A DNA stretch of 33,983 nucleotides. It comes from Candidatus Uhrbacteria bacterium (lineage in GTDB: Bacteria > Patescibacteriota > Patescibacteriia > UBA9934 > GWF2-40-263). Positions 1-3,367 of this stretch are shown here, piece by piece (position 1 is the first letter of the stretch; the number at the start of each line of letters is the position of its first letter). The notes under the pieces are model-generated. The model was given only the letters and a program-made list of their open reading frames with translations, searched no databases and had not been told where the DNA came from. The stretch lies in NCBI GenBank assembly GCA_014239775.1, contig JAAZYG010000044.1, forward strand, positions 1 to 33,983. Direction: 5' to 3'. The translations under genes were made by a program, and so were the position numbers.

Positions 1-150
1 ATCCTTTACAAGCACTGCACCAACTGGAAATAAAGAATCACCCGAACACTCTTTTTGTGCATTGAAAGCCTCTTTAATAAACTTATTATCAAGAGAAACA
101 AAAATGATCTCACGACCTTCTGGCAGATATGTGTATTTGATTTCAATCAT
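1..150 (-). CDS. Partial (C-terminus outside window) CMP/dCMP deaminase-like protein
   Basis: Minus-strand translation MIEIKYTYLPEGREIIFVSLDNKFIKEAFNAQKECSGDSLFPVGAVLVKD. The FPVGAVLVKD segment resembles the N-terminal strand of the cytidine/dCMP deaminase fold, and pyrimidine-metabolism genes follow. The zinc motifs lie outside the window. Confidence 0.55.
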   Translation of the reverse strand, partial: MIEIKYTYLPEGREIIFVSLDNKFIKEAFNAQKECSGDSLFPVGAVLVKD

Positions 151-186: not shown

Positions 187-366
187 ATGAACGATAATGA
201 AAATCAAAAAATGCTCGAGAATATAGGAAAAGATATGGCTATATTACTCCATAATTCAAATCTACCTGATGATGTAAAACAAGCATGGTCTGTTGTAATA
301 CCACATATGTCAGCTGAACAAATAGATAGATTGTCTAAATTACTTGCTCAACGAATCAAAAACTAA
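187..366 (+). CDS. Small hypothetical protein (59 aa)
   Basis: ATG-TAA ORF MNDNENQKMLENIGKDMAILLHNSNLPDDVKQAWSVVIPHMSAEQIDRLSKLLAQRIKN, just below the ORF-track cutoff and 1 nt upstream of the next ORF start. Confidence 0.6.
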   Translation: MNDNENQKMLENIGKDMAILLHNSNLPDDVKQAWSVVIPHMSAEQIDRLSKLLAQRIKN

Positions 367-367
367 T

Positions 368-793
368 ATGTCAGAACGACTAGGATACAATCCTGAAAGC
401 AACCCAAAAGAACAACCATCTGAACGGGCTGGAGAAATTCTAACCAACGCTTTAGATGCAGTACTTAACACAGCTGGACTGTCCTCTATTAGAAACATAG
501 GTGTTGGCCTTAGAACAGCATATGATCGTGCACAAACAATAAGCAGAGAAATCGCTTCTGGTGAGCGAACAGATGGTTTCATGCAAGAATACTTTGTAAA
601 TGGCTTTAAAGAAACATGGGACAAACTACGCATGCACGAAGGTGCAACAACAACAGATAAAATACTGAATGCGATTGATTCATTAACTGTAGCTCTAAAT
701 TATGGCAACATAGCCCTAGGACAATCAAAAAAATCTATCGATTCGACAGACATTGATCTTGCACTTGACGGTCTTGAAACTCAACCAGCTTAA
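368..793 (+). CDS. Hypothetical protein
   Basis: ORF 344..793. The internal ATG at 368 directly follows the upstream stop and is the likelier start. No recognised domain. Confidence 0.6.
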   Translation: MSERLGYNPESNPKEQPSERAGEILTNALDAVLNTAGLSSIRNIGVGLRTAYDRAQTISREIASGERTDGFMQEYFVNGFKETWDKLRMHEGATTTDKILNAIDSLTVALNYGNIALGQSKKSIDSTDIDLALDGLETQPA

Positions 794-1290
794 ACCTCCT
801 GTAAATGTAGCAAAACCGAATGCTCGCCCAACCGTGTTGAGTTGACCAACTTAAGGTTAACTCTATCAAATCCATGTGCAAATGGAACACCTTTACCAAA
901 CAAAACTGGTTCAATTGTCAAAAAATAATCTGTAATCAGACCTTCTCTAATAAAAATACTATAAACAGAAGAACCTCCTGCTACAACAACACTCTCATGA
1001 CCTTCCTTTTTAAGACGTGCCAAAAGTTCATTAGGTTGTTGTTTAGTAAATTCAACACCATTCACACTATAATCTTCAGGTGAATAAGTCATAACAATAA
1101 GCCTACGATCTTTTAAAGGCCGACCTATAGTATTAAATGTTTTGGAACCCATAATAACTACACCGCTTTCTTTTGTTTTTTCAATAAAAAAACGAGTATC
1201 CTCTTTGGATGTCCAATCAAGTGAGTTTTGTTCTGCTGATTCAGCAATTTTCCCATCAACAGACATTGCTGCAATTAAAATTACCTTCAT
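790..1290 (-). CDS. RibD C-terminal/dihydrofolate reductase-like reductase
   Basis: MKVILIAAMSVDGKIA start, VIMGSKTF and VVVAGGSSVYSIFI motifs of the DHFR/RibD_C fold. Overlaps the stop of the upstream thyA-like gene (ATGA). Confidence 0.8.
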   Translation of the reverse strand: MKVILIAAMSVDGKIAESAEQNSLDWTSKEDTRFFIEKTKESGVVIMGSKTFNTIGRPLKDRRLIVMTYSPEDYSVNGVEFTKQQPNELLARLKKEGHESVVVAGGSSVYSIFIREGLITDYFLTIEPVLFGKGVPFAHGFDRVNLKLVNSTRLGEHSVLLHLQEV

Positions 1291-2120
1291 AATGCTATTT
1301 TCATTTTTTTTACTGGTGACGCTGGATCATACTGCTCTTTAAACATTGAAAACATTTCATGAACAAGTTCTGAATCTCCATTCAATGCACGTTTAAATGA
1401 ATCCTTTGGAAGTTTACATATAATCTCATTATGAACATGACCTTCCCTATTTATCAACTCATTAACCTGACTATAATGATTCTCATAAATATGCGCATGT
1501 GAAATAGAAACCGTAAGTTTCCCTACTTCAACACCCAACTCTTGAGCAAGCATGGCCTGCAAAAGAGCAAATCCAGCCGTATCGTGTGGATTACCCAGCA
1601 TCATGTCATTTGAACGAATAATTAAGTGTAAATTTAATTTATTATTAATTATATTAACTGTCCAACAAAAAGGACAAGGAACATTTTTCTTTTTTGGCGC
1701 AATAAGACCATCGGTTGCAGGGTCCCACATTACAACAACCCCTTGGCGTGAAGAAGGCTCCTCTTTTAAATGCTTTACGAGGTCCAACAACTGATCTCTG
1801 CCGAAATACTTTCTCCACCTATATCCATAAGCAGCTTCGATTGTTCCATCTTCCTCTGCAAAATCATCCCAAATTTTTGTAAACTGACGTAAAAAATCTA
1901 AATCCTTTGATCCTGTTATCATCCATACAACTTCTGCACAAAATAAACGCACAGGAATTTTTCTAATTGTAAGTAAAGGAAAACCATTTGCTGGATAAAG
2001 CTCATACGTCATACCAGGCAAAGCCTTTGTACTAAGACCAGTACGTGCAGAAAAAATATCATCACCCTTGTGATAAACATTTAAAATCATATCCATATAA
2101 ACTTTATCGAAGCTTGTCAT
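1287..2120 (-). CDS. thyA: Thymidylate synthase family protein (Asn-to-Asp substrate-selectivity variant)
   Basis: Colinear with ThyA: GFPLLTIRK, IWDDFAEEDG, AYGYRWR, catalytic VPC, RSND, AHIYENH. The dUMP-selecting Asn is replaced by Asp (LGNPHDTAGF). Confidence 0.88.
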   Translation of the reverse strand: MTSFDKVYMDMILNVYHKGDDIFSARTGLSTKALPGMTYELYPANGFPLLTIRKIPVRLFCAEVVWMITGSKDLDFLRQFTKIWDDFAEEDGTIEAAYGYRWRKYFGRDQLLDLVKHLKEEPSSRQGVVVMWDPATDGLIAPKKKNVPCPFCWTVNIINNKLNLHLIIRSNDMMLGNPHDTAGFALLQAMLAQELGVEVGKLTVSISHAHIYENHYSQVNELINREGHVHNEIICKLPKDSFKRALNGDSELVHEMFSMFKEQYDPASPVKKMKIAL

Positions 2121-2190: not shown

Positions 2191-2625
2191 ATGAAAATAC
2201 CTGTGGAAATCTTTAAAACTCACCCAGATGCTCAAATACCACAATATGAAAGCACTGGTGCATGTGCATTCGACCTATCACCTATAGAAGACGCAACAAT
2301 TGCACCAAATGAAATAGTCAGGCTTAAAACAGGCTTAGTTATTTGTGTACCTGAAAATTATACACTTATACTTGCAGCACGTTCATCTACTCCTAAAAAA
2401 TATGGAGTAAATATACCGCAAGGATTTGGAATTGTTGATACAGACTACTGTGGCCCAACAGACGAAATTCTTTTACAACTCAGAAACTTTTCAAATCAAA
2501 CAATACAAATCAAAAAAGGACAACGTATCGCACAAGGAATGTTTGTTCCAGTAATAAAAGCTCAATTTAAAATAATAGAAAATATATCAAAACCAGACCG
2601 TGGCGGGTTCGGATCAACAGGTTAA
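2191..2625 (+). CDS. dut: dUTP diphosphatase (dUTPase) family
   Basis: Trimeric dUTPase motifs: STGACAFDLS, ARSST, GIVDTDYCGP, GQRIAQ, DRGGFGSTG. Confidence 0.88.
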   Translation: MKIPVEIFKTHPDAQIPQYESTGACAFDLSPIEDATIAPNEIVRLKTGLVICVPENYTLILAARSSTPKKYGVNIPQGFGIVDTDYCGPTDEILLQLRNFSNQTIQIKKGQRIAQGMFVPVIKAQFKIIENISKPDRGGFGSTG

Positions 2626-2641
2626 TTTGCTATAATATACT

Positions 2642-3367
2642 ATGAATCGTAAAGGATACTTCATCATAATTGATGGCATCGCTGGTAGTGGAAAATCCAC
2701 CATAATCAAAGCTGTTCAAAAGAATTTTATTAATTCTAATAAGAAAATATTTAAATTATCTGACTGGACACACGCCGAACCACCAAAATTTGAAGACATT
2801 TCTGATTTTGATGTTTACTTTACTTACGAACCAACAAGACACTGGATTGGTGCTGCAATCAGATATGAACTATCTCGAGAAGACGATTTATACGGAGGAG
2901 AAGAGCTTGCACACGCATTTTCACTCGACAGACAAATAATGTATAAACGCCTTATCCTACCAGCACTCAATGCTGGAAAAATAATAATTCAGGATAGAGG
3001 AATCTCCACATCATTGGTATATCAACCAATAATGCCGCAAAGTATAAGTATAGAGACAATCAGAAATCTTCCAGGAAATAAATTGGCTATCAAACATGCA
3101 CCTGATACACTTATCTTAACAAAACTATCTGCTGAAAATGCGTTTCAACGAATACAAAACAGACAAGATGAGCTTAAAGGAGTGTTTGGACAACTAAATT
3201 TTCTTAAAAAATTAGAAAAACGCTTTTCAGAAAAATGGTTAATTGAAACCTTTGAAAAACAAGGAACTGAAATAGTACACCTAGATACAAGCAGTGAACT
3301 TAGCAAAACAATAAACGAGACAAATAAAATCATAAATAAAATACTTACAAAAAATTTTTATGCCTAA
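2642..3367 (+). CDS. tmk: dTMP kinase-like P-loop nucleotide kinase
   Basis: P-loop IDGIAGSGKST, YEPTRHWIG, LDRQIMYKRLILPALNAGKIIIQDRGISTSLVYQ, as in thymidylate kinases. Confidence 0.78.
   Translation: MNRKGYFIIIDGIAGSGKSTIIKAVQKNFINSNKKIFKLSDWTHAEPPKFEDISDFDVYFTYEPTRHWIGAAIRYELSREDDLYGGEELAHAFSLDRQIMYKRLILPALNAGKIIIQDRGISTSLVYQPIMPQSISIETIRNLPGNKLAIKHAPDTLILTKLSAENAFQRIQNRQDELKGVFGQLNFLKKLEKRFSEKWLIETFEKQGTEIVHLDTSSELSKTINETNKIINKILTKNFYA

Follow-up and report, generated by a model that had tools for sequence, protein, structure and literature searches.

The thymidylate synthase (TS) homologue described here, encoded by a Candidatus Uhrbacteria genome, is probably a dCMP methylase that evolved from a thymidylate synthase; on the evidence of sequence it would feed a pathway leading from dCMP through 5-methyl-dCMP to dTMP. 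In the textbook account, cellular thymidylate is made from a single substrate, dUMP, by either of two enzymes, ThyA and ThyX. The wider reading, which we hold to be fairly likely, is that many lineages of Patescibacteria (CPR) possess a third route to thymidylate, from dCMP to 5-methyl-dCMP to dTMP, which would be their sole de novo source, shared with XP12-type phages and repeatedly fixed by one and the same pair of active-site changes.

The window, i.e. the whole stretch of 33 983 nucleotides that was analysed, is one contig (G000:C24) of a genome of 872 kb in 56 contigs, with an estimated completeness of 100%. The features on which the argument rests are as follows.

1..150, minus strand: DEA deaminase (dCMP-deaminase-like), first 50 codons, cut by the contig end; begins MIEIKYTYLPEGREIIFVSLDNKF (DEA profile, E = 7e-16)
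344..793, plus strand: ORF without assigned function, between the DHFR-type and DEA genes and convergent with the operon (no Pfam or NCBIfam match)
790..1290, minus strand: RibD_C/DHFR-type reductase, proposed to act as the operon's dihydrofolate reductase (PF01872, E = 2e-19; PF00186, E = 2e-18)
1287..2120, minus strand: ThyA-family enzyme, Asp in place of the dUMP-selecting Asn, proposed dCMP methylase (277 aa, ATG start; PF00303, E = 6e-55)
1581..1583, minus strand: codon of Asp180, equivalent to E. coli Asn177 and L. casei Asn229 (alignments)
1617..1619, minus strand: codon of Ile168, equivalent to E. coli Gln165, preceding Arg169 (alignment)
1671..1676, minus strand: codons of the catalytic Cys149 and of Pro150, equivalent to E. 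coli Cys146-His147 (alignments)
2191..2625, plus strand: dUTPase, divergent from the TS gene, its place kept in many relatives (PF00692, E = 6e-21; TIGR00576 over cut-off)
2642..3367, plus strand: thymidylate-kinase/dNK-like kinase (PF02223, E = 1.5e-19; TIGR00041 over cut-off)

An Asp at the dUMP-selecting position of a ThyA-family enzyme

The sequence-only reading of this DNA had placed a ThyA homologue at 1287–2120 without giving its strand. This assignment was borne out by profile search (Pfam Thymidylat_synt, PF00303, E = 6e-55, 186.6 bits), and the strand proved to be the minus one. Indeed, the protein has the TS fold, the catalytic Cys, the Arg-Ser-x-Asp motif and the sugar-site His and Tyr of the family, and its best Foldseek matches are all TSs. 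Among the NCBIfam models it passes only TIGR03284, scoring far under the equivalog cut-offs of most bacterial thymidylate synthases.

Residues were mapped through a MAFFT alignment with the database sequences of E. coli ThyA and T4 gp42. In E. coli numbering, the window TS displays Cys146, Pro147, Ile165 and Asp177, where E. coli ThyA has His147, Gln165 and Asn177 and T4 gp42 has Thr147, Met165 and Asp177. The same alignment gives Glu58, Tyr94, Arg126, Arg166, Ser167, Asp169, His207 and Tyr209 for the window enzyme, in which the general TS catalytic residues are all kept. In HMMER alignments, RSNDMMLGNPHDTAGF aligns without gaps to RS.D..LG.PFNIASY of solved TSs, and its Asp falls on the Asp of the L. 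casei N229D structure 1njc (GVPFDIASY). Each residue claim of the sequence-only reading thereby holds: Asp at the position of Asn177/Asn229 (window Asp180, with both HMMER and MAFFT), the catalytic Cys retained but followed by Pro in place of His (Cys149-Pro150), Ile in place of the Gln before Arg-Ser (Ile168 before Arg169, MAFFT) and an Asp at the same position in T4 gp42 (Asp177, MAFFT). Chance or misalignment as a source of Asp180 was ruled out by the HMMER comparison with solved TSs, N229D included, and by the invariance of the residue across the clade, as all 25 members of the CPR clade included in the tree have Asp177.

Two residues that define a dUMP-specific thymidylate synthase (EC 2.1.1.45) are accordingly replaced in the window TS, Asn177 by Asp and His147, which belongs to the O4 hydrogen-bond network, by Pro150. 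Asn-to-Asp mutants of the E. coli (N177D) and L. casei (N229D) enzymes carry the same substitution as the window TS and switch from dUMP to dCMP, which they methylate in vitro (Hardy & Nalivaika 1992; Liu & Santi 1992; as summarized in PMC8670742). These laboratory single mutants keep the His, whereas the natural Asp enzymes also change position 147. In the MetaGPA study, positions 177 and 147 were the two best separators of the TSs of modified-cytosine phage contigs from other TSs (PMC8670742).

Gene neighbourhood and proposed pathway

The stop codon of the TS gene overlaps the start of the DHFR-type gene as ATGA, and the TS-DHFR order recurs in many relatives. The DEA deaminase at the window edge had been missed by the sequence-only reading, and its presence changes the finding from an odd enzyme to a thymidylate pathway. 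The ORF at 344..793 probably lies outside this pathway.

In the pathway that we propose, a dCTP-deaminase-like (DCD-like) protein without the deaminating Glu would probably convert dCTP to dCMP. The Asp-bearing TS would then methylate dCMP at C5 with the one-carbon unit taken from CH2-THF; the products would be 5-methyl-dCMP and DHF, and from the latter the DHFR-type neighbour would regenerate THF. Deamination of 5-methyl-dCMP by the zinc deaminase DEA would yield dTMP, a substrate for the neighbouring kinase, and kinases would lead on to dTTP. The methyl group would thus be added before the amino group is removed, whereas the standard pathway deaminates first. The earlier suggestion that dCMP rather than dUMP is the substrate is supported by five lines of evidence, all of them read from sequences: the aligned Asp, the lost His147, the independent Asn-to-Asp origins, the linked deaminase DEA and the phage relatives of the XP12 group.

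The search for a second ThyA or a ThyX, which had been put forward as a check, was run genome-wide, and the profiles returned neither a second PF00303 match nor a ThyX in the window genome. A thymidine kinase is present, so salvage is possible there, a point against the proposed route. Another contig of this genome, C43, carries a complete DEA together with a DCD-like gene and another, partial, DHFR-type gene (L002/L271, 1-1902). Its DHFR and DEA share 59% and 56% identity, respectively, with the window copies, so C43 is a paralogous locus or else a contaminant from a relative that was binned with this genome. This, like the truncation of the window DEA, also weighs against the proposed route. 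Contig C43 also bears rplA-, rplK-, nusG- and gyrB-like ORFs.

The DEA and DCD-like proteins

Complete DEAs possess the zinc motifs of dCMP deaminases (DCTDs), HAE and CCxxC, and match PF00383 with 43 bits; the window copy ends before the zinc motifs, and all motif results refer to complete copies. The DEA signature is GHWW[CA]CxxCW. Two DCTD motifs are altered: CC or AC replaces the PC of PCxxC, and the allosteric motif G(Y/W)N(A/G) reads GFN[KR]G in Uhrbacteria and is absent in others. A structure model of DEA (pLDDT 76) matches RibD-type and dCMP deaminases in Foldseek. Some DEAs end in a PF05014/MilB-like domain (Pfam, Foldseek), which is degenerate or missing in many; MilB is a CMP N-glycosidase. 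A Phe of DEA aligns close to an aromatic residue that was reported to face the methyl group in the XP-12 deaminase (PMC12088426); this alignment is suggestive only. A viral origin of DEA was considered and rejected, as the viral contigs searched yielded no DEA relative at the sensitivity used.

In the DCD-like protein, a Pro is aligned to the Glu of the LExxN strand that we take to be the catalytic one of dCTP deaminase, and this is so in all readable members, those of Asn-type genomes included. A role for this partner as a dCTP deaminase supplying dUMP was rejected on account of the absent Glu. The Pro in its place leads us to read the protein as a likely dCTP/dUTP pyrophosphatase, which would supply dCMP. 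The family is CPR-wide (L002:1243-1902; homologues L003, L005 and L032-L054) and probably carries a dCTP deaminase annotation.

Distribution among genomes

A search of 85 462 genomes for DEA retrieved 23 loci, nearly all with an Asp-type TS, a DHFR-type gene and a DCD-like gene nearby. The cluster is arranged as TS-DHFR-DEA or TS-(DHFR)-DCD-DEA in Uhrbacteria, other CPR families and Doudnabacteria. The four genes TS-DHFR-DCD-DEA are contiguous in a Parcubacteria genome and form the same row in further CPR families (L118, L122, L126, L127, L129, L130 and L131); TS-DCD-DEA is found in a Doudnabacteria genome and in the CPR regions L132, L133 and L128.

Among 381 genomes of the class, 36 with an Asp-type TS were identified through a DNA pattern for this type combined with a PF00303 search, and 34 with DEA through the DEA profile (33 strong matches, plus G164, matched in two pieces). 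DEA is present in 32 of the 36 Asp-TS genomes versus 2 of the 345 others (Fisher p ~1e-39, kinship ignored). The Asp-TS genomes without a strong DEA match, which speak against the proposed pathway, are G017 (94% complete), G094 (79%), G238 and G355. Genomes G201 and G249 carry DEA without TS and have ThyX and a canonical dCMP deaminase instead; DEA is thus not bound to the Asp-type TS everywhere, which counts against a pathway in which methylation comes first. In one Gracilibacteria genome, DEA is accompanied by both a clade-type Asp TS and an ordinary Asn TS.

ThyX was absent from the Asp-TS genomes tested, with the sole exception of G238, whose TS forms a long branch. Thymidine kinase was detected in 19 of 33 Asp-TS genomes. 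The other 14, all at least 93% complete and several of them 98-100%, also lack ThyX and a second TS, so their dTMP would come from the Asp-type TS or from some other source not recognised. Two observations on related families were made in passing. Tandem double ThyX profile matches in single ORFs of approximately 570-660 aa (L151-L153; G001, G019, G249, G201, G098, G183, G219 and G235) correspond to a duplicated or fused ThyX in several CPR genomes. Proteins of approximately 500 aa with a weak, partial TS-domain match (L134:5294-6802 in G037; also G040, G042, G044 and G046) are sometimes the only PF00303 match of their genome.

The Asn-type CPR genomes used for comparison mostly have a canonical dCMP deaminase, a dUTPase, a DHFR-type gene and a kinase near TS. 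Their loci (e.g. L265 in G043, and L252) resemble the window in TS fold, catalytic Cys and DHFR-type, dUTPase and kinase neighbours, and sometimes share the Glu-less DCD-like protein with the Asp-TS clusters. These shared neighbours indicate that the neighbourhood serves thymidylate synthesis in both types. The canonical loci combine Asn177 and His147 with a canonical dCMP deaminase, whereas the window type combines Asp177 and a residue other than His147 with DEA. What varies together is the residue pair at TS positions 177 and 147 and, in the main clade and in genus g4 (see below), the deaminase family. A divergent Asn-type TS in which Ile or Gln replaces the phosphate-binding Arg21 was also noted in related genomes (L009-L015 and L145), in some of which a second deaminase-like ORF lies close to it.

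Methylation or hydroxymethylation

TS methylation makes DHF, whereas hydroxymethylation does not oxidise THF. The choice between methylation and hydroxymethylation had been left open by the sequence-only reading; a linked DHFR would be needed only by an enzyme that releases DHF, and its presence, together with the TS-type C-terminal tail kept by the window enzyme, favours methylation. The alternative, a dCMP hydroxymethylase of the T4 gp42 or MilA type that would make 5-hydroxymethyl-dCMP for DNA modification or as a metabolite while thymidylate came from salvage, seems to us barely credible. T4 gp42 does have Asp177 without His147, and both it and the CMP hydroxymethylases MilA/BcmA are, like the window TS, members of the TS superfamily with Asp177 (PMC5175136). 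The MilB-like domain at the end of some DEAs would also fit such an enzyme, but its degeneration or loss in many DEAs does not. Moreover, the identity between the window TS and T4 gp42 is 24.5%, and the window TS has DHFR-type and deaminase neighbours, although a hydroxymethylase would leave THF unoxidised. The C-terminal tail kept in the window TS is absent in T4 gp42, but also in XP12-type phages. Lys and Ala at E. coli positions 126 and 167 mark the MilA ribonucleotide type, and Arg and Ser the deoxy-specific enzymes (PMC5175136); the window TS has Arg126 and Ser167, the MilA pair being absent. Finally, reliance on salvage is hard to reconcile with the 14 Asp-TS genomes devoid of thymidine kinase, ThyX and a second TS.

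Phylogeny and repeated origins of Asp177

A maximum-likelihood tree of 80 TSs was built with columns 147, 165 and 177 removed. The CPR clade, related viral contigs and XP12-type phages group together with moderate support (95/64), and position 177 requires five changes on this tree. The alignment with ThyA and T4 gp42, part of another check suggested beforehand, leaves the Asp on position 177. The topology indicates that a deep Asp177 clade spans many CPR families and that Asp arose again independently in other CPR ThyAs. A large TS group of viral contigs (L205-L245), with Asn at 147, 165 and 177, was observed on a very long branch.

In three genomes of genus g4 (L006-L008, from G003, G030 and G021), the TS is a canonical-like ThyA that falls within the Asn-type CPR sequences in the tree but has Asp177 and Tyr147. 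This ThyA occupies the TS-DHFR-DEA locus, and a fourth g4 genome (L029, from G035) keeps the clade-type TS. A single clade of g4 ThyA and the window-type Asp TS was rejected, the constrained tree being worse by 293 lnL units. The placement indicates that in these three genomes the TS was replaced by an unrelated ThyA in which Asp177 re-evolved and His147 was lost, amounting to a natural replacement experiment. A further case is L115 (G355), sister to an Asn-type sequence (100/97), with Asp177 and Pro147 and with a canonical dCMP deaminase, a DHFR-type protein, a dUTPase and a kinase as neighbours.

In a table of 209 homologues, whose rows are not independent as a gene may be entered more than once, His147 is missing from every Asp177 row and present in every Asn177 CPR row; for position 147, L116 is the one aligner-dependent case (PCC or PCH). 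Phylogenetically independent pairs for positions 177 and 147 amount to three starred pairs, too few for significance.

These origins bear on whether the pathway could run in the ordinary order, with DEA converting dCMP to dUMP and the Asp-type TS methylating dUMP, the Asp and the loss of His147 being tolerated or compensated in a divergent ThyA. We regard this as unlikely, even though several observations agree with it. The window TS keeps every general catalytic residue; a canonical dCMP deaminase and TS adjoin in the standard pathway too; and the authors of the AXL1 study themselves read the XP12-type operon in this manner (PMC9206674). It is just as conceivable that DEA makes dUMP from dCMP and that the TS still accepts dUMP. 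The dUTPase linked to the TS gene makes dUMP, which a route with methylation first would not use; this counts against such a route, although the dUTPase may only bar dUTP from DNA. However, the ordinary order leaves unexplained the repeated gains of Asp together with a change at position 147, the convergent Asp of the g4 ThyA inside a DEA operon and the different deaminase of Asn-type relatives. It is also at odds with the preference of N177D and N229D mutants for dCMP, as related in PMC8670742.

Relation to XP12-type phages

Among phages, the best scores against the window TS come from Bradleyvirinae and Achromobacter phages. The closest, from Bradleyvirinae, show 36-38% identity over about 230 aa, have Asp177 and Pro147 and lie in a TS-dCMP deaminase-DHFR operon. 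The Asp-type phage loci examined have Pro147 too and share the row TS-dCMP deaminase(-DHFR), often after a pyrophosphohydrolase, and most Asp-type viral contigs are arranged likewise. The window TS thus displays the sequence traits of an XP12-type dCMP methylase: Asp177, a residue other than His at 147 and a grouping with the phage enzymes of moderate support (95/64).

Two phages of the same genus, AXL1 and DoCa6, represented XP12 in our comparison. AXL1 is closely related to Xp12: their genes follow almost the same order, and their DHFRs are 91% identical (PMC9206674). Cells infected with XP12 make a dCMP-methylating enzyme, and XP12 DNA has 5-methylcytosine throughout (PMC8543423). The XP-12 deaminase converts 5-methyl-dCTP to dTTP, independently of the host, and DCTDs accept 5-methyl-dCMP and generally act on monophosphates (PMC12088426). 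The methylation-first synthesis of thymidylate by XP12 goes back to ‘A new thymidylate biosynthesis’ (Kuo, Chow & Lin 1982) and to Wang & Ehrlich (1982), both as cited in PMC12088426. The AXL1 operon (L162:2501-4391) and those of related phages are annotated as dUMP-type thymidylate synthesis; operons of this type more likely encode a dCMP methylase and a methyl-dCMP/dCTP deaminase.

The XP12-type operon (Xp12, AXL1, DoCa6, Mallos and Donnerlittchen) resembles the window cluster in its Asp177/Pro147 pair and in having the three gene functions side by side. It differs in belonging to a phage and not to a cell, in gene order (TS-deaminase-DHFR versus TS-DHFR-(DCD)-DEA in CPR) and in its deaminase, a canonical-looking DCTD with PCxxC, whereas DEA, with GHWW[CA]CxxCW, represents a different subfamily. 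In XP12 the methylated product also replaces all C in DNA, a further difference. The likeness raises the possibility that the cells follow the phage more closely, 5-methyl-dCMP being phosphorylated first and deaminated as the triphosphate, or some 5-methyl-dCTP entering DNA. The reported activity of the XP-12 deaminase on 5-methyl-dCTP (PMC12088426), the 5-methylcytosine throughout XP12 DNA (PMC8543423) and the dNK/TMK-like kinase adjoining TS are compatible with this variant. We nevertheless judge it quite improbable, since DEA and the phage deaminase differ in subfamily, DCTDs generally act on monophosphates (PMC12088426) and the DCD-like protein, if a dCTPase, would draw the pool toward the monophosphate.

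Significance of a route from dCMP

No report of thymidylate synthesis with methylation before deamination in cells or in CPR was found in PubMed Central, which covers few subscription papers and is weak evidence of absence. The reaction order is already known from XP12 infection; its chromosomal and apparently de novo use by cells appears, from the sequences compared, to be new, as do the different deaminase family and the repeated evolution of the 177/147 pair.

If the proposed route from dCMP through 5-methyl-dCMP is true, the label of ordinary thymidylate synthase that annotation pipelines give to an entire clade is wrong, and the order of the last two steps of thymidylate synthesis is evolvable. 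How the two-residue switch became fixed is testable, because in genus g4 it evolved anew in a ThyA acquired from elsewhere. The phage pathway described in 1982 would gain a counterpart in cells, and free 5-methyl-dCMP would be a normal metabolite of the Patescibacteria with an Asp-type TS. With a standing pool of 5-methyl-dCMP, these cells would either exclude 5-methyl-dCTP from their DNA or tolerate it, which would bear on DNA repair and epigenetics.
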